Origin: Thermoproteota archaeon
GTDB taxonomy: Archaea; Thermoproteota; Methanomethylicia; Methanomethylicales; Methanomethylicaceae
Direction of reading: 5' to 3'
DNA: 64,000 nucleotides
Assembly (NCBI GenBank): GCA_016882195.1
Contig: VGLU01000003.1
Span: forward strand, 62,001-126,000
The notes under the pieces were generated by a model. That model saw only the letters and a program-made list of their open reading frames with translations. It ran no database searches and had not been told where the DNA came from. Below, piece by piece: positions 7,451-28,372 of this stretch. Positions within the stretch are counted from its first letter, which is position 1. Each line of letters opens with the position of its first letter. The position numbers and the translations under genes are program-made.

Positions 7451-9016
7451 CTAAACGTCGCACTTCTCCTCGGTCTCGGACTCAATCTTGATCCCCTCGG
7501 GCGGCGTTATCCCCTTCTTCTTCATGTAGTCGAGTATCGCCGCCTTCAGACCGTCCGAAGCTAGGTTGGAGCAGTGCATCTTTATCGGGGGCAATCCGTC
7601 GAGCGCGTCCGCCACATCCTGCCTCGAGATCTTAAGGGCCTCCTCTATCGTCCTCCCCTTGGCCATCTCCGTCACCATGCTGCTGGTGGCTATCGCCGCG
7701 CCGCACCCGAAGGTCTTGAACTTGACGTCCTCAAGCCTGTTGTCCTTCACCTTGATGTAGATCCACATCAGGTCTCCGCAGTTATGCACGGTCAGAGAGG
7801 GCGTGACATACGAGTGCGCCACATTGACTTCCAGATTGCTGACGAATCCGCCGTATTCCGTGCTTTCAATCCCTGTTATTGGGACGAACAGCATGCCGTT
7901 CTCTATCCATGCCTTGCCTCTTGGGTTTTTCTTGAAATTGAAGCCGACGTCCAATATGGATGAAAGTTTTCTAATAGACGGTGTTTCGAGAACGAATACC
8001 CTGTATGTTTTTCTATGATGCACCCCCTTCGAGACCCTGGTTTTCTCCTCATAAACGGACGGAATTATTCCCTGTCTCAACAACAGCATCTTTATCTGCT
8101 GGGCAAGAACCTTCGAGACGGTGGAATACGACGCTCTCGGTTTGTTCACGTCGATATACCCGTCACCGTGCCACAGTCCTCTGATCAACTCTGCCTGTTT
8201 ATCCAGGGGAAGGAACATCATGAACTCTGGCACGCTCCTCTCATCGTCCTTTCCGCCAAACAATTTTCTTAAAAATCTGGCGGCATGCGCATTATAGATG
8301 ACAATATTCACGGTTTTCCTCTCCTCGCGCCTTTCTATCTTAGCGTCCACTCCGAAAACGTTTCTGACGAGGCGACAGGCATCCATTACGTTGTCTTCCT
8401 CGTTGGTGTTGAAAGTCAATGTGGCATACGTTTTACATCTTTCAATCCTGGTGTTGCCCTCGGCTAGGAAGTATCCGGCGAAGCGCATAAAGTCGCCATC
8501 CACCTTGATCCTCGGCGGTATTTCAATGCTCTTGAAATCGTGCTCAGATTTTTCCACATTCGTTTCTATTTCGCTAACGTCGCTGCTCTCGTTCGGGACT
8601 GGATATGCGACCATGTCCCCCTTGTCCAGTTCGCACGCATGCCACCACGCGAGGTCTCCGACCAACCTCTTTTTGCCTCTTGTATACCGGTATTTGTCTC
8701 CTCTCGGAACCTTAAAACCGAACACCATATGATCTGGTGTGAGCGCTGTGTTTCCAAGGCGGTTTTTAATATCCAAAATGGTACCCGCGTATGCTCGGCT
8801 GAACCTCTTGTTTATTCTGTGAAATGCTCCGTCGTGGGACAAAACTGTGTCCGACTTGTTGATTGCCCGGATTGGAACAGCGGAGCCCTTGACAACTACA
8901 TCTGTGTCTGGAGGCACGCAGATGGGGTTCCCCACCTTCCCGATCCCGTCGGCGTCCGGTATCTCGCCCACGTTCCTGGGATTCCTGAAGTGCTCCATGA
9001 CCTTCTGGCTGTACAT
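7451..9016 (-). CDS. iscU: Fe-S cluster scaffold IscU/NifU-like precursor interrupted by an intein
   Basis: Exteins join as ...GKVGNPI + CGDLMWIYIKVKDNRLEDVKFKTFGCGAAIATSSM...IKMHCSNLA: all three scaffold Cys present. Confidence 0.93.
   Translation of the reverse strand: MYSQKVMEHFRNPRNVGEIPDADGIGKVGNPICVPPDTDVVVKGSAVPIRAINKSDTVLSHDGAFHRINKRFSRAYAGTILDIKNRLGNTALTPDHMVFGFKVPRGDKYRYTRGKKRLVGDLAWWHACELDKGDMVAYPVPNESSDVSEIETNVEKSEHDFKSIEIPPRIKVDGDFMRFAGYFLAEGNTRIERCKTYATLTFNTNEEDNVMDACRLVRNVFGVDAKIERREERKTVNIVIYNAHAARFLRKLFGGKDDERSVPEFMMFLPLDKQAELIRGLWHGDGYIDVNKPRASYSTVSKVLAQQIKMLLLRQGIIPSVYEEKTRVSKGVHHRKTYRVFVLETPSIRKLSSILDVGFNFKKNPRGKAWIENGMLFVPITGIESTEYGGFVSNLEVNVAHSYVTPSLTVHNCGDLMWIYIKVKDNRLEDVKFKTFGCGAAIATSSMVTEMAKGRTIEEALKISRQDVADALDGLPPIKMHCSNLASDGLKAAILDYMKKKGITPPEGIKIESETEEKCDV
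7781..8920 (-). mobile_element. Intein (380 aa) with LAGLIDADG homing endonuclease inside iscU
   Basis: Starts CVPPDTDVVVKG, TPDH block B, endonuclease motifs FAGYFLAEGNT and LIRGLWHGDGYID, ends NVAHSYVTPSLTVHN|C. Confidence 0.95.
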
Positions 9017-11749: not shown

Positions 11750-12823
11750 GTGAAACCCCCTATGAAAACTTCTGTAATTGTTGGGATAGTGATAGTTGCC
11801 GTCATCGTGGTCGGGGCAGCCTACGCCTACACGACAATGACCGCGCCGGCGGCGCCGGCGTTCAAGGTCGCCGCCATCTACGTCACTCCGCTTGAAGAGA
11901 CGTGGAACCAAGTACTGCACCAGGCGCTCCTCGAGGCAAGGGACGAGCTGGGGATTACTTACAACTACTCCGAGAGGGTGTCCGAGTCACAGGTCGAGAG
12001 CATCATGCTCCAGTACATCAACAGCGGATTCAACATGATTATCACCCACAGCTGGGGATTCTGGGAGACCGCTGACAGGATCGCACCGCAGTTCCCCAAT
12101 GTCTACTTCGCCCAGGGCTCCGGGCTATGCACGAACTTCGGCAATAACCTCGCCCTCTTCGACTACTACATCCAGGAGGCTGCGTACGAGGCAGGAGCAA
12201 TCGCCGCAAAGATGACCAACACCAGCAAGGTGGGCATCGTGACCGCATTCTCAGGGGTCGGAGACGTGAACAACCTGCTGAACGGTTTCGTCGCCGGCGC
12301 AAAACACGTGAATCCAAATCTCAACGTCACAATCTCATACATCAATTCCTGGTATGATCCCCCGGCTGCAAGGACCGCTGCAAGTGCACTGATCGCCTCG
12401 GGAGTTGACGTGATCTACTCTGAGAGGTACGGTATCTTCGAGGCCTGCAAGGATACAAGCGGAAAGGTACTCGCCCTCGCCTTTGGCAACATCGTGGACC
12501 AGAACAACCTCGCCCCGGATGTCGTCGTCGGCAGTGTTGTATGGGACCTCTATCCGATGGTAAGGTCGATGATCCAGGGCGCCCTGTCTGACAATTTCGC
12601 CTCTGGTCACTACTATACTACGATGGATACCGGCGGATCGAAGTTTGTTTGGAACACCGCATTCCAGAACAATTACCCCCTAGTCTATTCATATAGCCAG
12701 ACCCTGCAACAGCAGATAATCAACGGAACCATCTACTGGAATACCAGCGTGACGCTGATCAACGGAACGGTTGTTGATGGGAGCAATGTACCGATCTCGG
12801 TGCCAAACTTCAGAAACCCGTAG
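11750..12823 (+). CDS. BMP-family ABC transporter substrate-binding protein
   Basis: Signal/TM N terminus, BMP-type pattern (EAAYEAGAIAAKMTNTSKVGIV); followed by matching ATPase and permeases. Confidence 0.88.
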   Translation: MKPPMKTSVIVGIVIVAVIVVGAAYAYTTMTAPAAPAFKVAAIYVTPLEETWNQVLHQALLEARDELGITYNYSERVSESQVESIMLQYINSGFNMIITHSWGFWETADRIAPQFPNVYFAQGSGLCTNFGNNLALFDYYIQEAAYEAGAIAAKMTNTSKVGIVTAFSGVGDVNNLLNGFVAGAKHVNPNLNVTISYINSWYDPPAARTAASALIASGVDVIYSERYGIFEACKDTSGKVLALAFGNIVDQNNLAPDVVVGSVVWDLYPMVRSMIQGALSDNFASGHYYTTMDTGGSKFVWNTAFQNNYPLVYSYSQTLQQQIINGTIYWNTSVTLINGTVVDGSNVPISVPNFRNP

Positions 12824-12833
12824 AGGTGGCTCT

Positions 12834-14423
12834 ATGCCCCTCTCTCCTATTTTTTTTAAAAAAACTAAGTTTGAGGTTGAAAAGGTATCTAATGCGTCCA
12901 CCGAGAGCGACTCGGTAACGCGTTCGGATCATTCCATATTTGTTAGGGGTATCCGCAAGACTTACCCCAACGGAGTTGTGGCCAACCAGGACGTCACGTT
13001 TAGCATCCTGAGGGGCGAGGTGCATGCCCTGCTGGGGGAGAATGGTGCGGGCAAGACGACCCTCGTGAAGATCCTCTCTGGTTGCCTCACCCCAGATTCG
13101 GGCGAGATCCTCGTTAACGGTAGGAGTGTCCGCATAGAGGACCCCATAAAGGCTGTTAAGCTTGGCATTGGCATGGTTCACCAGCACTTCACCTTGATCC
13201 CTACGTTCACAGTCGCCGAGAACATTGCGCTCAGCCTCTCCCTCTCTGGAAGGCTGAACCTTGATGCGGTCAAGGGGAAGATAAAGGAGGTCTCAAAGAA
13301 CCTAACACTCGAGATAGACCCGGATGCGAGGATAGAGCAGCTGCCTGTGGGTCTCAGGCAGAGGGTAGAGATACTCCGCCTGCTCTGTCAGGATGTGGAT
13401 ATTCTCATCCTAGATGAGCCCACCTCTGTGCTTACTCCTCTCGAGGTGGAGGAGCTCTTCAAGACGATAAGGCGGCTCAAGTCCAAGGGGAGATCCGTCA
13501 TAATTATCACTCACAAGGTAAAGGAGGCCCTGGCGATAAGCGATAGAATCACCATTATGAGGGGAGGCAGGGTGGTCAAGACCCTGCCCACCATCTCCAC
13601 AAACGAGGCGGAACTGGCTGCGCTCGTGGTGGAGGGCTTCGCATCATCGCTCCGGGTCGACAGGGGCAAGCCTGGCGAACCCGTCCTCATGGTAAAGAAC
13701 CTTTCAGTTAAGGGCAAAAGGGGAGAGATGGCGGTAAAGGGCGTGGATCTGGTCCTCCACGCCGGGGAGATATTAGGCATAGCTGGAGTGGCTGGGAACG
13801 GGCAGAAGGAGCTCGTTGAAGCTCTCACAGGACTCCGCAGGATCGAGTCCGGAACCTCCCTCCTGAAGACCTGTGACCTAACCAACAGGCCACCGAAGTT
13901 CATAATCCGGAAGGGCGTCTCCTACATCCCTGAAGACAGGATCAGGAGGGGGGTCGTGCTCAGCATGAGCGTCTCCGAGAACCTCGCCCTCAAGAACTTC
14001 GAGGAGCAGCCCTTCAGCAAGAACATGGTCATCAACAGAGAGTCTATTGACAGATACGCATCGGATCTTATCTCCAAGTTTGGGATAAGGGCTTCCGATC
14101 CATGTGCCACGGTGAGCAGTCTGTCCGGTGGAAACATCGGAAAACTTGTCGTGGCGAGGGAGCTCTCCAACGGTGCCAACATAGTGGTAGCAGAGCAGCC
14201 AACAGCAGGTTTGGATGTCAAAGCATCCGAAGCCGTTCACCAGAAGCTAATGGAGCTGAGATCAAAGGGCGTCGCCGCGCTGTTGATCTCCGCGGATCTG
14301 GACGAGATAATAAAGCTCAGCGACAGGATTGTGGTGATGTATGGCGGTAAGTTTGTCGGAGAGTTCACCCATGACTCTCTCGACATTCAGAAGTTGGCGA
14401 GACTGATGCTGGGGTCGGCATAA
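12834..14423 (+). CDS. ABC transporter ATP-binding protein, double ABC (BMP/nucleoside type)
   Basis: Walker A GENGAGKTT, Walker B DILILDEPTSVL, second degenerate ABC half (GVAGNGQKEL); start chosen at 12834. Confidence 0.9.
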   Translation: MPLSPIFFKKTKFEVEKVSNASTESDSVTRSDHSIFVRGIRKTYPNGVVANQDVTFSILRGEVHALLGENGAGKTTLVKILSGCLTPDSGEILVNGRSVRIEDPIKAVKLGIGMVHQHFTLIPTFTVAENIALSLSLSGRLNLDAVKGKIKEVSKNLTLEIDPDARIEQLPVGLRQRVEILRLLCQDVDILILDEPTSVLTPLEVEELFKTIRRLKSKGRSVIIITHKVKEALAISDRITIMRGGRVVKTLPTISTNEAELAALVVEGFASSLRVDRGKPGEPVLMVKNLSVKGKRGEMAVKGVDLVLHAGEILGIAGVAGNGQKELVEALTGLRRIESGTSLLKTCDLTNRPPKFIIRKGVSYIPEDRIRRGVVLSMSVSENLALKNFEEQPFSKNMVINRESIDRYASDLISKFGIRASDPCATVSSLSGGNIGKLVVARELSNGANIVVAEQPTAGLDVKASEAVHQKLMELRSKGVAALLISADLDEIIKLSDRIVVMYGGKFVGEFTHDSLDIQKLARLMLGSA

Positions 14424-14450: not shown

Positions 14451-15500
14451 ATGGAGCTAAAGCTGACGAAGTCAACGGTTCGTTCGATATACAAGGCAGT
14501 GATATCCATCGCTCTTGCGCTGGTCGTCACCTCGGTACTATTCATAGCCACCGGGGCAAATCCGATCCTGGCCTATTACTACATCTTCGTTGGGGCCTTC
14601 GGCAATCTCAACCTTACGGTGGAGACCCTCGTCAGGACGACCCCCATACTGCTCGTCTCGCTCGGGCTTGCCATCGCCTTCAAGTGCAAGGTCTGGAACA
14701 TCGGTGCAGAGGGGCAGCTCTACATGGGCGCCATGGCGGGCACTATAACCGCGGTCTCATTAGGCAACAGTCCACTCACGCTTCCTGCCTCAATACTTGT
14801 TGCGATCTTGGGCGGAATGGCTTGGGCAGCTGTACCAGCTCTAATGAAGACGAAGCTGGGGATAAATGAGGTCATCACCACGTTCCTCATGAATTACGTT
14901 GCCATCTACTTCGTGCAGTGGCTACTTTCATTTCCGTTCAGGAGCCCAGACACCCTATTTCCAGAGTCCGCGCAGGTACCGCAGGCGGCCGTACTCCCTA
15001 TCCTGCTACCGACTACCCGCCTCCACCTGGGAGTGGTGCTCGCCATCGCGGTTGCCCTGCCACTCGTATACTTCCTCATGATCAAGACGACCTTTGGCTA
15101 CAAGCTGAGGGCCGTGGGCGAGAACCCTGAGGCGGCGAGGTTTGGTGGGATCAATGTCAGTAGAACCATATTCTTGGCCCTAGTACTCAGCGGGGCACTC
15201 GCTGGCATCGCCGGTCTCTTCGAGGTCTCCGGAATACAGTTTAGGATGAGGGGCTCGCTCTCGCCCGGGTACGGATACACCGGCATAGTAGTTGCGCTGC
15301 TGGGTCAGAACAACCCCATTGGCGTCTTTCTGTCCTCGATCTTCTTGGCGGCAATATTCAACGGCTCGTCGACCATGTCCAGAGTCCTCAACCAGCCGCA
15401 GGGCGTGGTTGACTTCATCCAAGGGGTTCTTGTGATCTTTGTTCTGGGATCGGAGTACATCATGCGTTACCTTGAGAAGAAGGGGGTCTTTAAGGCATGA
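14451..15500 (+). CDS. ABC transporter permease (BMP/nucleoside type)
   Basis: NIGAEGQLYMGAM, RAVGENPEAARFGGINVSRT. Confidence 0.9.
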   Translation: MELKLTKSTVRSIYKAVISIALALVVTSVLFIATGANPILAYYYIFVGAFGNLNLTVETLVRTTPILLVSLGLAIAFKCKVWNIGAEGQLYMGAMAGTITAVSLGNSPLTLPASILVAILGGMAWAAVPALMKTKLGINEVITTFLMNYVAIYFVQWLLSFPFRSPDTLFPESAQVPQAAVLPILLPTTRLHLGVVLAIAVALPLVYFLMIKTTFGYKLRAVGENPEAARFGGINVSRTIFLALVLSGALAGIAGLFEVSGIQFRMRGSLSPGYGYTGIVVALLGQNNPIGVFLSSIFLAAIFNGSSTMSRVLNQPQGVVDFIQGVLVIFVLGSEYIMRYLEKKGVFKA

Positions 15501-16435
15501 TGGAATGGGCGCTAATCCTTGGGTTTATTGCCGCTGGGATAAGAACCGCCTCCCCGCTTCTTCTGGCATCTCTAGGCGAGACCGTTGTTCAGAGGGGAGG
15601 AATACTCAATCTGGGGATAGAGGGGGCAATGCTGATGGGCGCCTTCTCCGGCTTCATGGGCGCCTATCTGACTGGGAACCTGTGGGTTGGGCTGCTGACA
15701 TCCATCATTGCCGGTGTACTGACCGTTCTCATATTCGGCTTTCTCGTCATCAGGATCAACCTCGATCAGGTGGTATCCGGGCTTGCCATTAACCTCCTCG
15801 CAATGGGGCTGTGCCTCTACTTCTTCAGGATTGCGTTCTCGCAGGGGGCCTTCCCATATTTGGGAGATCTCATAGGCCCCTATGCGATACCAGGGCTGAG
15901 CCAGATCCCGGTTCTGGGCGAGGTGCTCTTCAACCAGACGGTGTTCGTCTACATCGGTCTGATCGCGGTCCCTCTGATCTACTTCCTTATCTTCAAGACC
16001 TCCTTCGGTCTGAGGCTGAGATCCATAGGCGAGGACCCCGTGGTGGCCTCCTATCTGGGCATAAATGTCAGCAGAATAAGGTACCTATCGCTCATAATCG
16101 AGGGAGCTCTAGTGGGAATGGCTGGGGGTCTGCTTACGATATCCATGTTCAACGTCTTCGACAGCCGCATAGTGGCGGCCAGGGGCTTTGTGGCGGTATC
16201 CATAGTGATCCTCGGCAGGTGGAACCCTTGGGGAGCACTTGGAGGCTCGCTACTGTTTGGGTTCACCGAGGCCCTGTCGCTCTGGATAGGCACCTTTTTG
16301 GTGGGCCCCGCGGCGCCTTCTGTAAGTCTGCTATTGAGAATGCTACCCTACGTGGTAACGATACTGGCGCTCCTCGTCGGAGGTAGAAAGGTTAGAGGGC
16401 CCGCTGCATTGGGTTCTCCCTTTTCCAAAGAATAG
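15497..16435 (+). CDS. ABC transporter permease (BMP/nucleoside type)
   Basis: LNLGIEGAMLMGAFSG, RSIGEDPVVASYLGINVSRIRY; overlaps upstream permease by 4 nt. Confidence 0.9.
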   Translation: MMEWALILGFIAAGIRTASPLLLASLGETVVQRGGILNLGIEGAMLMGAFSGFMGAYLTGNLWVGLLTSIIAGVLTVLIFGFLVIRINLDQVVSGLAINLLAMGLCLYFFRIAFSQGAFPYLGDLIGPYAIPGLSQIPVLGEVLFNQTVFVYIGLIAVPLIYFLIFKTSFGLRLRSIGEDPVVASYLGINVSRIRYLSLIIEGALVGMAGGLLTISMFNVFDSRIVAARGFVAVSIVILGRWNPWGALGGSLLFGFTEALSLWIGTFLVGPAAPSVSLLLRMLPYVVTILALLVGGRKVRGPAALGSPFSKE

Positions 16436-16556: not shown

Positions 16557-18728
16557 ATGAAGCTACAGATAAAGACTCTGGTTATTCTTAGCATTATTGG
16601 AATATGTATGGTTGGTATGGTTTACGTCTCCACAAGAATCATAATTATGAATGGTTTCTTGGAACTTGAAAAACAGGAGACACTTCATGGCGTAGAGATC
16701 GTCGTTGGAGCCATCTCAGAGAGATTTTCGCGTCTGTCCTCGATCTGCTCAGATTACAGCTTGTGGGATGACACATACGCCTTTATTAACGATAGAAACA
16801 TCAATTTCATCGACACAAATCTCGTGGATCAAACGTTTATCGGCTTGAATCTCAACGTTATGCTATTCTTCAATTCATCCGGCTTTTTGGTCTACGGAAA
16901 GGCCTTCGACCTTCAGACGTTGCAGGAGGTTCCGATACCGTCTGATCTGGTAGCCAGCGTGTCCTCACAAGGCATTTGTTCGTATGATTGAGGAGAAAAA
17001 GACGATTCTGTAACAGGTATCATAATGCTTAGTGAAGGACCAATGATGATCTCCTCGCAACCCATAATGAGGAGTGAGGGAGAAGGGCCCGTTCGGGGTT
17101 CGCTGATTTTTGGCAGCCACTTTGATACGGGGGCGGTCAGCTCTATTGCTAGGACTACCAACCTGTCGTTAAGCCTGCTGAACATGGCATCTGCCGAGCT
17201 TCCTTCTGAATGGATTGGAGCTGAGGTCATGCCTATAAATCCAATTGTAGTTCGACCAGCAAACGAAGATATCGTATCAGGATACATCCTGCTGAGCGAT
17301 ATCTTCGGAAAACCTGGGCCAGTCATTAAGATGGATTTGCCTCGGGCAACATACAAGCAAGGCCTATCAAGCACTACCTATTTTACTGCAGTCTCCTCGA
17401 TCCTGCTCCTGTTGTTTGGACTATGTGTTTATCTTCTACTGCAAAAATTTATTCTTGCTAGGGTTGATAGGCTGAGCAAAGATGTTACAGAGATAGGTGT
17501 CCGTGGGAGACACTCTGCTCATGTCAGGACCTCTGGAAATGACGAAATATCGAGTCTTGGGGCTGCCATAAATGAGATGCTTGCCGCACTCAACCAATCC
17601 CAAGAGGATCTCAAAAAAACTGCGAATGAGTATAGAACAATATTCGAAACGACGGGGGCCGCCACCGTGGTATTCGGTGAGGATATGGTGGTCATTCATG
17701 CAAACCACATGGTCGAGACGCTCTCGGGGTATACCAAAGCAGAGATAGAGGGAAGGATGAAGTGGACCGCCTTCGTTTCTGAAGATGATCTCCCCCGGAT
17801 GCTCTCCTACCATAAACAGCGCCCCTCTGGCAACGTTCCAAACAAGTACGAGTTCAAGTTCGTCAGAAGAGATGGCGAGGTTGGATATGGCATAGCCCAT
17901 ATTGCGATCGTGCCAGGCACGACGATACGGGTAGCCTCCATCACCGACGTGACGGCGATGAAGAAGGCAGAGGGCATTCTGAAGGCGTACTCTGCACACT
18001 TGGAGGAGTTGGTGAAGGAGAAGACGCGGCAAAAGGAAAAGCTGATGATAAACATTACACATGAGCTACGTACGCCGCTCGTATCAATCGTGGGTTACCT
18101 GAACCACGTCCTGAAAGATAATGTGGAATCGCTTCCGGAAGCGGTCAAGTGCAGCTTGGAGGTCGTGAAGCGCAACGCACAGAGGCTTGTTGCCCTTACA
18201 GACGACCTCCTCGATCTGAGGAGCATCGATTCAGGTATGTTGAAGCTCGACATGCGCAAGCTTGACTTGGTGGAGGTAATTACACTGTGCATAACTGAGA
18301 TCAAGCCGTTCTTCGAGACCAGGCTGCAGAAAGTCAACGTAGAGCTGCCTCCGCACCCCCTGATGATCTTGGGAGACAACATTCGGCTATGCCAAGCATT
18401 CACAAACATTCTGAGCAACGCCTCTAAGTTCACACCTGAAAGTGGAGTTATTACTGTAAAAGCAATCGAGGACGGTGATAGCATTAGGACGGAGATCACC
18501 GACACTGGCATAGGCATCAGGAGAGAGGATCTCGAACGGGTATTCGAGCCGTTGGCCATGATTGAAAAGCCCACTTATGTCAGAGGGACAGGCCTTGGCC
18601 TCAGCGTAACCAAGGGACTCGTGGAGGCGCACGGTGGGAGGATATGGGCCGAGTCCGCAGGCGAGGGGAAGGGTGCAAAATTTGTAGTAAAGCTTCCAAT
18701 GCTGAAGCTTGATGGAAAAGAGACGTAG
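16557..18728 (+). pseudogene. CHASE4-PAS-histidine kinase interrupted by one in-frame TGA (16989..16991)
   Basis: ORFs 16557..16991 and 17025..18728 are in the same frame; bridging codons read SYD*GEKDDSVTGIIMLSEGPMM; H-box ITHELRTPLVS and HATPase present. Confidence 0.8.
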
Positions 18729-18773: not shown

Positions 18774-20150
18774 TTACCTGATCTCTATCCCTAGCTCCGT
18801 CAGCTCTCCCACAATTTCGTCGTACTTCTTCTGCCACTCCTTCTTAGGTTTGGCCGAACCGAGGTCGTAGAGCTCCTGGAAGGTCTTGCCCTTGGGCGCC
18901 TTCGTTACGTCCAACCACTTCTCGTACTGCGGCACCCACGTGTTGAGGAACTCGTTCGCGTCCTCGCGTCTCATTCCGGTAGCCGCCAGCGCCATCTCCT
19001 TGAGCAGCCGCGCCTCCAGTCCGGTGGAGTGGTCAAGAAGCTTCCCTCCGCAGGAGCCGCATCCCATCAGGTGTAGCCCACTCACCGAAGAAGCAACGCC
19101 GCCCGCCGCGGCCTCCCTTAACAAAACATCCGTTCCAGGTCCGGCTGCGCAGTAACAGTCGTAGATGCTCATCATGTCTGAGTTGCGCGCGAACGCCTGG
19201 CCCTCGATGCTTATCGTCCAGAGCCCTGCCCTGTCCGTGCCGTTCAGGTTCCTCACGTTCGTCAGGCTGAGATAGTGGTAATTCGCATTGTAGCAGACCG
19301 CGCCGGCGATGTGCTCCGCTATGTTCACGATGGCAGTGCCCTCCGGCCCCCCAGAGTATCCTCCCAAAATGGGGGTCATCAGGTTCCCGACGAAGCAGCC
19401 GTAGCTCAGCATGTGTTCTATGAGCGCCAGGTGCGCAAAGCTGGTCTTCAGCTCGATCATCTGGGAGACGAGCAGACCGTCCGTGGGCCTTATCCCGTTT
19501 ACCGGATCTAGGGCGCAGATCTTCGCCTCGGGGCTGACTATCGCTATGTCGTTGATGTGCATTCCCGGCCTTCCCGCCTCAGAAATCGCCTGTCGGGCCC
19601 ACCTCCCCAGCATCCTCGCCGCCCTGAACTCCTGCGGTGTCCCCTTCCTTATCTTGAACCCATCTATGGTCGCGAGGGTCCCGGCGCCGACGGAGTCTAT
19701 TACAGCCTCCTGTGCGTAGCTCCTCAGCGTCTTGACGTAAACGTCTCCTTCGGTGCAGAGTGTCCCGGTCGGTCCAGCATGTATAACCGGTGACGTAGGG
19801 TCCTCTATCCTCCTCATCTCCATCTTGACAGCGTCCTTCCCGGCTCCCAGCGTCAGGCTTGTGGAGAGCGAGTTCAGTACCTTTTTAACCTCCCACTCCT
19901 CGAACTTGATGCACCGCTTGGTGGTCTGGCAGTAGAACCCCAGCTCCAAGAACAGCTTCATCCCCGCCTCCCAAGCGTCGTCCGCCATGGAGTCGTCCAG
20001 CGTCACAAGCTCTTCGGGGTTGAACCTTAGGTCGTGCTCCTTCACAAGCTCCCTCGTCCGCTTCATCAACTTCATATCGAAGTCCCTCTCCTCCATGTAA
20101 GGACCCTCGAAGGCCCTCTTTGTGACCTCGTCCAACCTGTAGCTTCTCAT
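18774..20150 (-). CDS. Monomethylamine methyltransferase (MtmB)-like protein, non-pyrrolysine (paralogue 2)
   Basis: 458 aa; MtmB-like architecture (FYCQTTKRCIKF, GPTGTLCTEGDVY, AGRPGMHIN, GGYSGGPEGTAIVNIAEHI, STGLEARLLKEMA, GKTFQELYD); no in-frame TAG. Confidence 0.85.
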   Translation of the reverse strand: MRSYRLDEVTKRAFEGPYMEERDFDMKLMKRTRELVKEHDLRFNPEELVTLDDSMADDAWEAGMKLFLELGFYCQTTKRCIKFEEWEVKKVLNSLSTSLTLGAGKDAVKMEMRRIEDPTSPVIHAGPTGTLCTEGDVYVKTLRSYAQEAVIDSVGAGTLATIDGFKIRKGTPQEFRAARMLGRWARQAISEAGRPGMHINDIAIVSPEAKICALDPVNGIRPTDGLLVSQMIELKTSFAHLALIEHMLSYGCFVGNLMTPILGGYSGGPEGTAIVNIAEHIAGAVCYNANYHYLSLTNVRNLNGTDRAGLWTISIEGQAFARNSDMMSIYDCYCAAGPGTDVLLREAAAGGVASSVSGLHLMGCGSCGGKLLDHSTGLEARLLKEMALAATGMRREDANEFLNTWVPQYEKWLDVTKAPKGKTFQELYDLGSAKPKKEWQKKYDEIVGELTELGIEIR

Positions 20151-20161
20151 TTAGATCACCC

Positions 20162-21529
20162 TTAGAGATCCAGTCCCGTCATGTCCGCAATCTTCTTCTT
20201 CATCTTCAGATAAATCGCATTCCACTCCGGCTTCGGGATGACCTTGCTCACGTCGTAGAGCTCCGGGAACGGCTTACCGATGTCGGGCCTGTCCATCCCG
20301 TCCTTGTACTCCTTCGCCAGCTTGACGACTATCTCATTTGCGTTCCTTCGGTTTAGACCTGAGCAGACCGTCTCCAGCGCCACCTCCGCCATGAACCTCG
20401 TCTCCAGCCCTGAGGCGTGCGGGTACTTGCCGTTCGTCGCCGAGACGCCCAGCGGGTGCGATCCAGTCACCACGTTGGTAATGGTATTGGCAGCCGTCTC
20501 GTAGAAGATCATCTCCGTCCCAGCCCCGGCTGATGTCCACACATCCCCCATCAGTATGAACGGGGCGTTCCTCGCCATGGACTGCCCCACAATGTTCAGG
20601 TTCCACATGCACTCCACGGCGCTGGTGCTCATGTACCTGAAGTGTATGGGGTGGATCACGTGGTATTCGGATCTGTACATCGTCCTGCCCAGGAGGAAGG
20701 AGGCTATGAAGCAAACGGCAACCCCCTCAGGGCCGCCGGCGTAACCGCCTATTATGGGATCCACCAGCGTCACGTTGAGGGCGCCGTACTCGGTGAAGTT
20801 CACGACCTTGGATATCCTGTCGTAGTCCGTCTTGAGCTCGTTCAGTAGTGCCACCAAGTGGGCATCGCTCGTCCTCATATACCTGTCCGAGGCTATTGCC
20901 AGGTCTCCTAGAGCTGAGACGCTGCTCTCCGCTGCCAATAAGTGAATTCCCGGCCTGCCTGCCCTGGCAGCCGCCTCCCTAAGCATTGAGAGCTCCCTTC
21001 TTGTGGCCTGAATCTCCAGCGGGGTGTTGGTCCTGACCTTCCTCCCCTCCACGACCGCCAGACCGCCATTATTGATCATGTCTATGAGCGGCTCCTTCAT
21101 GTAGGAGAGGGACATGGGCAGGTACCACTCCTCCGGTATGGGGGCGCCCGCCTGCCCGCCGCATATGATAGCCGCCCTCTTGTCCTCTATCCCACGCGCG
21201 TAGAGTATCCTGGCGTCCTTCCTCGTACCGATGTGGAGCTTGTTGGGGGCGGAGACTATGGCCTCCTGAACCTCGCTCTCCTCGAACTTTATTATCCTCT
21301 TCGTGCTTCTGCAGAAGATCCCTGCCTCGAGGGCCAGCCTCATCCCAGCCTCAAAGATGTCATCAGCAAGCGAGTCGTCTGTGGTGATGATCTCGGTGGG
21401 GTCGAACTTTATCTCGTACTCCTTCACAAGCTCCCTGCATCTCTTCGCCACGACCTTCAGGTCGAAGTCCCTCTCCTCTATGTACGGGCCGGTCTCTGTC
21501 TTGTCTATGACCTCCCAGATGGAGTTCAT
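20162..21529 (-). CDS. Monomethylamine methyltransferase (MtmB)-like protein, non-pyrrolysine (paralogue 1)
   Basis: 455 aa; GIFCRSTKRIIKFEE, AGRPGIHLLAAESSVSALGDLAIAS, GGYAGGPEGVAV, ASGLETRFMAEVALE, GKPFPELYDV; no in-frame TAG. Confidence 0.85.
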   Translation of the reverse strand: MNSIWEVIDKTETGPYIEERDFDLKVVAKRCRELVKEYEIKFDPTEIITTDDSLADDIFEAGMRLALEAGIFCRSTKRIIKFEESEVQEAIVSAPNKLHIGTRKDARILYARGIEDKRAAIICGGQAGAPIPEEWYLPMSLSYMKEPLIDMINNGGLAVVEGRKVRTNTPLEIQATRRELSMLREAAARAGRPGIHLLAAESSVSALGDLAIASDRYMRTSDAHLVALLNELKTDYDRISKVVNFTEYGALNVTLVDPIIGGYAGGPEGVAVCFIASFLLGRTMYRSEYHVIHPIHFRYMSTSAVECMWNLNIVGQSMARNAPFILMGDVWTSAGAGTEMIFYETAANTITNVVTGSHPLGVSATNGKYPHASGLETRFMAEVALETVCSGLNRRNANEIVVKLAKEYKDGMDRPDIGKPFPELYDVSKVIPKPEWNAIYLKMKKKIADMTGLDL

Positions 21530-22188
21530 CTGGCCTTCACCTTTCGGAGGAGCTCCTGTGCTGCCTTCACCGCCTCGTCGCCATCGTCACCGTAGCCGTC
21601 CGCACCGATCTGAGCTGCCCACTCCCTGGTGACAGGTCCCCCTCCAACCATCACGATGTACTTCTTCCTTACCCCCTTCTCCTTAAGCAGCGCGAGCAGG
21701 TCCTCCATGTACGGCATGGACGTGGAGAGGAGGGTCGAGGCCGCGATTATGTCTGACTTGGTCTCCTCAGCCTTGTTTATCAGAGCGTCCACAGGTACCT
21801 CCCTTCCCAGGTCGTGGACCTCGAAGCCGTTTGCCCTGAGCAGCATAGCCACTATGTTCTTCCCGATGTCGTGTATATCCCCGTATATTGTCCCTATCAC
21901 GACCTTGCCCTTCTTGACACTCTTGCCGCCCTTCTTCAGGGCCGCCGGTTCGAGGATGGCGAGGGCCGCATTCATCGCCTCGGCAGCCATCATGACCTCC
22001 GGGAGGTAGACCTTCAGCTTGCTGAAGTCCTCCCCCACCTTGGCCATGCCCTTCATAAGGCCCTCACTGATGGCCTTGAAGGGGTCCACTCCGGTCCTCA
22101 AAGCCTTCCTTGAGGTCCCTGCCGCCTTCTCCGCGTCTCCATTGATAACAGAATCTGCCAAATCATCAAGGATCTGCACCTTGCTCAT
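21526..22188 (-). CDS. Corrinoid (B12-binding) methyltransferase protein, MtmC/MtbC-like
   Basis: GDIHDIGKN corrinoid His motif, VGGGPVTREWAAQIGADGYGDDGDEAV; N-terminal cap domain. Confidence 0.93.
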   Translation of the reverse strand: MSKVQILDDLADSVINGDAEKAAGTSRKALRTGVDPFKAISEGLMKGMAKVGEDFSKLKVYLPEVMMAAEAMNAALAILEPAALKKGGKSVKKGKVVIGTIYGDIHDIGKNIVAMLLRANGFEVHDLGREVPVDALINKAEETKSDIIAASTLLSTSMPYMEDLLALLKEKGVRKKYIVMVGGGPVTREWAAQIGADGYGDDGDEAVKAAQELLRKVKAR

Positions 22189-26063: not shown

Positions 26064-27923
26064 TTAGAGGCTCTCCAGAACCGTGGCTACATCCTCCAGT
26101 CCCATGCGGACGAGCTTCTCCCTTGTCGGGATGCCAGTCCTCTTGTCCCATCCCTTGATACCATAGAACTCGTCCAGCATCCTGTTCAGGGTGGGCTCGT
26201 CGGTGTGCATACCCTTGGACGGTCCCTCAGGGATGGGCTCCTCAAGGAACCTCCTCGGCAGGGTGTCGTCCTTCCTCCTGATCCCAGTCATTACGTTGAA
26301 GGCCCTCTCTAGGTCGAGTATCCTCTCTGCAATGTCCACCAGCTCGTTGAAGGTGTAGCCAAATCCCGTGACTGGATTTATCATATCAACATACTTCTGT
26401 GTCAGGGTGAAGCCGAGCAACCTCTCGAGGAAGTGGCACTGGACTAGGGAATCACCTATGGTCGTCATCTGCTGTGTCCCTATCACCCAGGCTGCCTTGC
26501 CGTCGATCGCCTTTCTGTCCGAGGCTCCCGCGTACTCTCCGGTGGGTCTCGGGTCGTGGTGGCTACCGCCCCTCGTGGCAGTGGAGTAGCCCAATGCCAT
26601 GCCCCTCAGCGCCCTCGCGGAGTGGCCCGGCACCTCCAGACCCTTCACCTGTATGGCAAACCGCTCGGAGTCCCCGCCGATCACTCTGGCGGCGCGGAGC
26701 GAGCCCTCTGCCATCAGGTCTCCAATACCGATCCTCTTTGCCGTCCTCTCCACGTAGTTCACCAGGACGTCGTCGTTTCCGAAGTTGAACTCAACGCCCT
26801 CGGTGTTCTCCTTGGTGATGAGCCCCCTCTGGTAGCACTCCGTCATGAACGCGACCATGACGCCGTAACTTATGGTGTCCAGACCCCACTCGTCGCAGAG
26901 GCTGTCCGTCTTTATCAGCGCCCCGGAGTCGCTTATGCCACACATGGAACCAAATGCGTATACGGTCTCATACTCCGGCCCCTCCGATACCGCACCCTTC
27001 CACTTCCCCTCCTTCACCGTGAATACCTTGCTGCAGGCGATGGGGCAGGCTGGGCAGGCTGTATCCTTGGTCCAGTAAGACTTCTTCAGGGTCTCGCCAG
27101 AGATGCCCTCCCAGCCCTCGAAGAACTCCCCTTGGTGGTTCCTCGTCCCCATTGCGCCGAACATGTTGTTTATGCTCGCCACCAGCACCGGGGTCCCGTA
27201 GGTCGGCAACCCCGTCGCGATCGCGGGGATCTTCTTCGCCTCTGCGTTGTACCAGTTAATCCACTCCTCGAACTTCGCAGGGTCGGCCACCTGGTTTGAG
27301 CCGGACCCCCTGACCGCCACCGCCTTTAGGTTCTTGGAGCCCATCACCGCCCCCACTCCTCCCCTTCCGGCTGCGCGGTACTCAGTTATGACACAGGCGT
27401 ACCTGACACAGTTCTCGCCGGCTGGACCGATGGCAGAGATGCAGAGGCTGGGGTCTCCTGCCTCCTCCTTGATCGCCTCCTGGGTCTCGCCCGTGAGCTT
27501 GCCCCACAGCCTCTCGGCGGACCTGAACTCGACCTTGCCGTCCTCCACGAAGAGGTACGTGGGTTTATCGGCCCTTCCTGCGATCAAGATCCCGTCGTAG
27601 CCGGCGTACTTTATCTGGGCACCTATGTGCCCTCCGCTGACGCTGTCGAAGTAGCCGTTGGTGAGCGGGGACTTCGTCGCCATGTAGTACTTGCCCGCCG
27701 TGGGTATGTTTATCCCCTGGAAGGGACCCGTCATCATCGCAACGACGTTTGTTGGGTCGAACGCGTCCATCCTCGGGTTTACCATGTCGAAGACGTATCT
27801 TGCGGCGAAGCCGTTGCCGCCGAGGTACCTCCTCGCGAACTCGTCCGTGACCTCCAGCGTGGAGCTCTTCTTATTGGTGAGGTTGACCCTCAGTATCTTG
27901 CCCTTATAACCACTATACCTCAT
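26064..27923 (-). CDS. aor: Aldehyde:ferredoxin oxidoreductase (tungsten enzyme) family
   Basis: MRYSGYKGKILRVNLTNKKSS, FQGINIPTAGKYYMATKSPLT, CPACPIACSK Fe-S motif; start placed at 27923 because the upstream extension overlaps the ferredoxin gene. Confidence 0.92.
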   Translation of the reverse strand: MRYSGYKGKILRVNLTNKKSSTLEVTDEFARRYLGGNGFAARYVFDMVNPRMDAFDPTNVVAMMTGPFQGINIPTAGKYYMATKSPLTNGYFDSVSGGHIGAQIKYAGYDGILIAGRADKPTYLFVEDGKVEFRSAERLWGKLTGETQEAIKEEAGDPSLCISAIGPAGENCVRYACVITEYRAAGRGGVGAVMGSKNLKAVAVRGSGSNQVADPAKFEEWINWYNAEAKKIPAIATGLPTYGTPVLVASINNMFGAMGTRNHQGEFFEGWEGISGETLKKSYWTKDTACPACPIACSKVFTVKEGKWKGAVSEGPEYETVYAFGSMCGISDSGALIKTDSLCDEWGLDTISYGVMVAFMTECYQRGLITKENTEGVEFNFGNDDVLVNYVERTAKRIGIGDLMAEGSLRAARVIGGDSERFAIQVKGLEVPGHSARALRGMALGYSTATRGGSHHDPRPTGEYAGASDRKAIDGKAAWVIGTQQMTTIGDSLVQCHFLERLLGFTLTQKYVDMINPVTGFGYTFNELVDIAERILDLERAFNVMTGIRRKDDTLPRRFLEEPIPEGPSKGMHTDEPTLNRMLDEFYGIKGWDKRTGIPTREKLVRMGLEDVATVLESL

Positions 27924-27928
27924 ATTGA

Positions 27929-28372
27929 TCACTTCCCGCCCTCCGGCAGCCAAACGAGCGTTAGAGCGCTCTTCGGGCATGCCTTGACACAGCTCGGATC
28001 CCCGTCGCATAGGTCGCATATCAGCGGCATCTTCGTCTCGGGGTGGAGCCTTATCCCGTGGAAGGGGCACGCCTTTACGCAGTCACCGCAGGAGTTGCAG
28101 AGCTTCTCATCCACCACTATGTTGCCCCCCTTGTAGGAGAGGGCCTTGGTGGGGCATGCAGGTATGCAGAAGCGCTTGTCGCACCTCGTGCATATCAGGC
28201 TCCTGAGCATCAGCGGGCTCTTCCTTACGATGGTTATCCTGGACAGGGCGTCGCCGTATTTGCCGTAGTGGTACTTGGAGCAACTCAGCTCGCAGATCTT
28301 ACAGAAGGCGCACTTCTGGACGTCAAACCTTATGAGCGGCTTCTTTTCCTGCGTCAAAACAACACTCATCAT
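27929..28372 (-). CDS. 4Fe-4S ferredoxin-type electron-transfer protein (AOR partner)
   Basis: CAFCKICELSCSKYH, CTRCDKRFCIPACPTKAL, CNSCGDCVKACPFHGI, CDLCDGDPSCVKACP. Confidence 0.92.
   Translation of the reverse strand: MMSVVLTQEKKPLIRFDVQKCAFCKICELSCSKYHYGKYGDALSRITIVRKSPLMLRSLICTRCDKRFCIPACPTKALSYKGGNIVVDEKLCNSCGDCVKACPFHGIRLHPETKMPLICDLCDGDPSCVKACPKSALTLVWLPEGGK

Follow-up and report, generated by a model that had tools for sequence, protein, structure and literature searches.

The stretch of DNA analysed here (64,000 nucleotides of contig VGLU01000003.1, hereafter the window) carries on its minus strand three genes that we call C, A and B. The first gene, C (21526..22188), encodes a corrinoid protein of 220 aa, and is followed by A (20162..21529; 455 aa) and B (18774..20150; 458 aa), which encode two paralogues of the methyltransferase MtmB that contain no pyrrolysine (Pyl). 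The stop codon of C and the start codon of A share the 4 bp ATGA, and 11 bp separate A from B, so that it is reasonable to regard the three genes as an operon. The original prediction, made from the DNA letters, had already described a single operon of three minus-strand open reading frames (ORFs), for a corrinoid protein and two MtmB-type proteins of these lengths, and its coordinates are confirmed. C is assigned to the methyltransferase cognate corrinoid proteins by TIGR02370, with a score of 215.4 bits that is barely above the cut-off (215.3 bits), and also matches PF02310 and PF02607; it contains the sequence GDIHDIGKN, and thus the DxHxxG motif, and its best match in the Protein Data Bank (PDB) is MttC (7XCN_M). 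A (365 bits) and B (330 bits) both cover the Pfam MtmB family PF05369 end to end (cut-off 25 bits), and their closest solved relatives by sequence are MtmB structures from Methanosarcina barkeri (PDB entries 1L2Q/1TV2; E 3e-70 and 3e-66). The AlphaFold2 models of A (pLDDT 95.8) and B (pLDDT 94.0) adopt the TIM-barrel fold of MtmB, with a TM of 0.95–0.96 and an rmsd of 1.4 against entries 1NTH/1L2Q/1TV2 (0.96 for A with 1NTH and 0.95 for B with 1TV2). The MtmB architecture proposed for both proteins is therefore retained, with no sign of another fold.

At the position of MtmB Pyl202, alignment to MtmB and inspection of the codons give Leu198 in A (TTG, 20936..20938, minus strand) and Asn200 in B (AAC, 19551..19553, minus strand). 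This position is always Leu or Ile across the A orthologues and invariantly Asn across the B orthologues. Neither gene contains an in-frame TAG, which rules out the readthrough of a hidden TAG; moreover, TAG is an ordinary stop in the window, where it ends 16 of the 43 ORFs of at least 200 aa. The original prediction was accurate on both residues and on the absence of TAG. Two further positions separate A and B from the Pyl-containing MtmBs. The Glu259 position is Glu in the latter and Leu in every A and B examined (in the window, Leu255 of A, 20765..20767, and Leu257 of B, 19380..19382, both minus strand). The Gln333 position is Gln in the latter and is occupied by Asp throughout the A and B sets (Asp329 of A, 20543..20545, and Asp331 of B, 19158..19160, both minus strand), this column being taken from the MAFFT multiple alignment; in the pairwise phmmer alignments it can also be read with a shift of one residue. 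In the MtmB structures of Hao et al., these two residues reportedly handle the amine adduct. A and B also differ from each other: 26 columns are invariant inside the A set and inside the B set yet different between the sets, including the strand of the Pyl site (L/I versus N). Finally, the Cys-rich loop MGCGSCGG that had been noticed in one paralogue is indeed present in B (19044..19067, minus strand) and absent from A; it is invariant in the B proteins of Methanomethylicia but missing from those of Desulfurococcales, and this Cys motif is thus no general requirement. The proposal of MtmB-fold proteins without pyrrolysine, accompanied by a cognate corrinoid protein, is supported.

The host is a methanogen of the Methanomethylicia (Verstraetearchaeota) with a genome of 1.45 Mb that is 97% complete (G000 in what follows), nearly all of which was covered, as stretches, by our genome scan. 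The relatives returned by a protein search are Candidatus Methanomethylicia, Methanosuratincola among them; G000 is placed in their family, of which 22 genomes were compared. PylS scores above the cut-off in two of them (G169 and G234), the two that have a TAG-containing MtmB. In G000, the search for pylS suggested along with the original prediction gave only matches of 26.5 and 19.5 bits for a cut-off of 178 bits; the same kind of match occurs in 13 of 14 control genomes and we read them as other class II synthetases. No tRNA with a CTA anticodon was found in G000 by ARAGORN, which can miss tRNA-Pyl. A tree of Pyl and non-Pyl MtmBs, also suggested at the outset, places the true Pyl-MtmBs of the family, which score 530–590 bits, away from the A and B clades. 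One may wonder at this stage whether a canonical Pyl-dependent MtmB has been overlooked through annotation or assembly, as published Methanomethylicia metagenome-assembled genomes (MAGs) list ‘mtmB’ with pyrrolysine unmentioned (PMC10033731). The lack of an in-frame TAG, of PylS and of a CTA tRNA in G000, the use of TAG as a common stop, and the scores and separate branching of the true Pyl-MtmBs make this extremely improbable, and for G000, at its completeness, the idea is already refuted. It can be added that a Methanomethylicus-type contig of G169 (C34; L045) carries Pyl-MtbB, PylS and Pyl-MtmB together, along with a divergent, long-branch non-Pyl MtmB homologue; PylS and MtmB/MtbB have been noted previously in a Methanomethylicus strain (PMC5424206).

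A and B are both present in 18 of the 22 family genomes and a single contig-end fragment is found in two more; G169 has its Pyl-MtmB and a distant homologue in their place, and G090 has neither. Contig ends excepted, none of the 22 genomes has only A or only B, in agreement with the two-paralogue unit proposed originally, and the two proteins probably belong to a single complex or share out one task. In the tree, A and B form two well-supported clades in which Desulfurococcales and Methanomethylicia follow one and the same branching order; single-copy homologues from Thermofilaceae are the sister group of the A clade. The A–A and B–B distances are correlated with a Mantel r of 0.99, as would fit a pair that is passed on vertically as one unit. 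The C–A–B unit is found repeatedly in the family, and again in Desulfurococcales, with a BMP-type ABC importer next to it. Elsewhere in the comparison, at L095:4285-14573, a single A-like MtmB and a corrinoid protein lie beside genes for an apparent CooC-type ATPase and corrinoid iron–sulfur protein subunits, a gene content that, as read from the sequence, suggests methyl flow to acetyl-CoA.

McrA is found in all 22 family genomes and MtrE in none. This is the pattern of methyl-reducing methanogens, in which methyl groups should enter via corrinoid methyltransferases. The absence of a RamA- or MtbA-like partner, as reported originally, is correct for the window, but G000 has candidates elsewhere: an MtaA (equivalog match, 406 bits for a cut-off of 400) some 15 kb ahead of the window on its own contig (C3), and one RACo/RamA-type activase that adjoins McrC and scores above the Pfam RACo cut-off and below the NCBIfam RamA and AcsV cut-offs. 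MtaB, MttB, MtbB and MtrE were not found in G000. Across the family, MttB is present in 2/22 genomes, MtbB in 1/22 and MtaB in 8/22, and five genomes at least 90% complete, from three genera (G000, G022, G038, G062 and G076), have A and B and no other searched family. All eight species of Methanosuratincola have A and B and seven have MtaB, with PylS, MttB and MtbB in none of the eight. With H2, the M. petrocarbonis isolate LWZ-6 uses methanol and monomethylamine (MMA), and not dimethylamine, trimethylamine, betaine or methanethiol (PMC12244365). This is our strongest clue to function: Methanosuratincola has only two recognised systems, MtaB and A/B, and the simplest reading is that MtaB serves methanol and A/B serve monomethylamine.

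On balance, we infer that A, B and C probably constitute one co-inherited, Pyl-free substrate:corrinoid methyltransferase system that feeds MtaA and methyl-coenzyme M reductase (MCR), with monomethylamine as its likeliest substrate. A different substrate had been proposed originally, by analogy with MtgB; this is possible, but the physiology of LWZ-6 points to monomethylamine (PMC12244365). In such a system a methylated amine, possibly imported by the neighbouring BMP-type ABC importer, would be demethylated in the barrel of A and/or B by C in its Co(I) state, methyl-C would pass its methyl group via MtaA to coenzyme M, MCR would convert the methyl-coenzyme M (methyl-CoM) to methane with H2-derived electrons, and the RACo/RamA-type protein would re-reduce oxidized C. 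Activity without pyrrolysine is credible: MtqB from Methanococcoides, the first non-Pyl MtmB homologue with a demonstrated function, demethylates tetramethylammonium (QMA) and choline and, weakly, MMA, with cob(I)alamin as the methyl acceptor (PMC13044021, March 2026), so that the MtmB fold can act without Pyl. We put forward more tentatively, as an idea less likely to be right than wrong, that A and B together are an obligate heteromeric, Pyl-independent monomethylamine:corrinoid methyltransferase that alone sustains methylamine methanogenesis in Methanomethylicia, which would make the 22nd amino acid dispensable for the reaction.

Several observations weigh against the proposed A/B/C system with monomethylamine as its substrate. 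The residues said to handle the amine adduct, E259 and Q333, are lost in both proteins. G234 has A and B together with a Pyl-MtmB, a redundancy if MMA were the substrate of both. The LWZ-6 species is represented in our set by the 74%-complete V4 MAG, which has a gap inside the A/B pair, and not by the LWZ-6 genome. The Mantel r mostly reflects the species tree, which alone would give it. G090, of the same family and 95% complete, has McrA but no homologue of MtmB, MttB, MtbB or MtaB, and unrecognised methyl routes thus exist in the group. In G000 itself, two further clusters of corrinoid and UroD-type genes (C3, ~43.3–48.0 kb, L185; C1, ~201.8–205.5 kb, L181) are possible additional methyl-entry routes, and the notion that A/B are the sole one is weakened by them. 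Finally, the kinship of the importer's binding protein hints at a larger substrate.

The four importer genes lie on the plus strand beside C–A–B, with a sensor kinase in between, and encode a BMP-type solute-binding protein (11750..12823; PF02608, 131 bits), an ATPase with two ABC domains (12834..14423, in a frame open from 12771; two stretches matching PF00005), permease 1 (14451..15500; PF02653, 156 bits) and permease 2 (15497..16435; PF02653, 129 bits). Despite changes in gene order, three lineages keep the importer with the C/MtmB-like locus: Methanomethylicia, Desulfurococcales and a lineage that we call f17. The Desulfurococcales loci (L089-L092) combine the importer and C–A–B in another order with an adjacent RACo/RamA-type gene, and two of them (L091 and L092) have a UroD-family gene of the MtaA/MtbA kind close by; the f17 loci (L058:5682-15760, L059 and L060) have the same importer, an activase, and C with one MtmB-like and one MtaB-family protein. 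This linkage invites the alternative that A, B and C demethylate a larger N-methylated compound brought in by the importer, such as a methylpurine-like heterocycle or a quaternary amine like choline, with the use of MMA by Methanosuratincola having another cause. The nearest solved relatives of the solute-binding protein hold guanine (AtzT, PDB entry 6PI5) and adenine (PDB entry 3S99), a Trp/Trp/Asp/Glu pocket is conserved in 19 of these binding-protein sequences, and MtqB acts on QMA and choline (PMC13044021). On the other hand, Asn218 and Asn220, which contact guanine in AtzT, are not conserved, and betaine is not used by LWZ-6, although choline and methylpurines were outside the compounds tried; we consider this alternative unlikely. 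A nucleoside or guanine transporter is not supported, because these two Asn residues are not kept.

The division of labour between A and B allows two other readings. In one, which is compatible with the system proposed above and which we regard as a serious possibility somewhat short of an even chance, only one protein is catalytic, and its partner in a heteromer has a structural or corrinoid-docking role. The constant co-occurrence of A and B and their mirrored trees agree with this, as do the 26 set-specific columns, with the Pyl-site strand among them, the contacts of MttC with a dimer pair in MttB–MttC (PMC9842639) and the single A-like gene of Thermofilaceae; yet both barrels are intact and carry the same Leu/Asp replacements. 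In the other, A and B would be separate enzymes that act on different substrates and share C. The same 26 columns could be read this way, as could the Cys loop of B and the association of one MtmB-like and one MtaB-family gene with one C in lineage f17, but separate enzymes should be lost separately, and no such loss is seen among the 22 genomes outside contig ends, which makes this reading rather improbable.

Three other features of the window are worth recording. The CHASE4 sensor histidine kinase between the importer and the operon (16557-18728, plus strand) is split into two ORFs (16557-16991 and 17025-18728) that share a frame, as if by an in-frame TGA; a pseudogene, a recent nonsense mutation or a fault in the assembly could account for this. 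Near the operon are an aldehyde ferredoxin oxidoreductase and a ferredoxin-like protein (26064-28372, minus strand); a similar placement is seen in L035, L040, L041 and L048, from several genera, and not in g4/g5. Further away, an IscU-like ORF of 521 aa (7451-9016, minus strand) diverges from IscU past ...GNPIC (VPPDTDVVVKG...) and looks like an IscU with an inserted intein.

The existence of pyrrolysine is attributed to a need for methylamine activation, with MtmB as the textbook case. Should non-euryarchaeal methanogens use a Pyl-free MtmB pair for growth on monomethylamine, this rationale would change, and the lineage has a pure culture in which the need for pyrrolysine in methylamine use is directly testable. 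Several genera have, besides MCR, no recognised substrate-specific methyltransferase other than this pair, whose substrate thus bears on what these organisms convert to methane. Methanomethylicia MAG papers list the A/B genes as ‘mtmB’ and use them to predict methylamine use (PMC10033731), a label given although the catalytic residue is absent. Any claim of first discovery is weakened by the MtqB paper: non-Pyl MtmB homologues already form a known class, in which one protein has been characterised (PMC13044021). The apparently obligate two-gene form is new as a variant, and we found no description of the tandem pair in the literature searched, which excludes two key Nature 2024 papers on Methanosuratincola.

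Compared with the Pyl-dependent MtmB of M. barkeri (PDB entries 1L2Q, 1NTH and 1TV2), A and B share the full-length family match, the fold (TM 0.95–0.96, for 32% identity), a companion corrinoid protein and, presumably, a methyl-CoM route via an MtaA/MtbA-type enzyme. They differ from it in lacking pyrrolysine, in the changes of E259 to Leu and Q333 to Asp, in being two co-inherited paralogues and in having a BMP-type ABC importer linked to them. MtqB/MtqC of Methanococcoides methylutens Q3c (PMC13044021) likewise come from a methylotrophic methanogen and pair a non-Pyl MtmB homologue with a dedicated corrinoid protein; however, MtqB is a single gene, belongs to a member of the Euryarchaeota that also has Pyl, and acts on QMA/choline. 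Putative MtqB-like sequences from Methanosarcinaceae (L103 and L134; the Q3c MtqB is not in the tree) form a clade separate from A and B and have Cys-Met at the E259–Q260 position. MtgB and other non-Pyl MttB homologues offer an analogous case, Pyl-free relatives of a Pyl methyltransferase that work with a corrinoid protein, but they are of a different family: A and B have no match to PF06253 and a TM of only ~0.5 to the MtgB/MttB structures. Finally, the A-like MtmB homologues of Thermofilaceae (L061-L072, L094 and L096-L101), which unlike A and B are encoded by a single gene with no B partner and no adjoining BMP-type importer, have in common with A the Leu at the Pyl site, the Leu at the E259 position and the Asp at the Q333 position.

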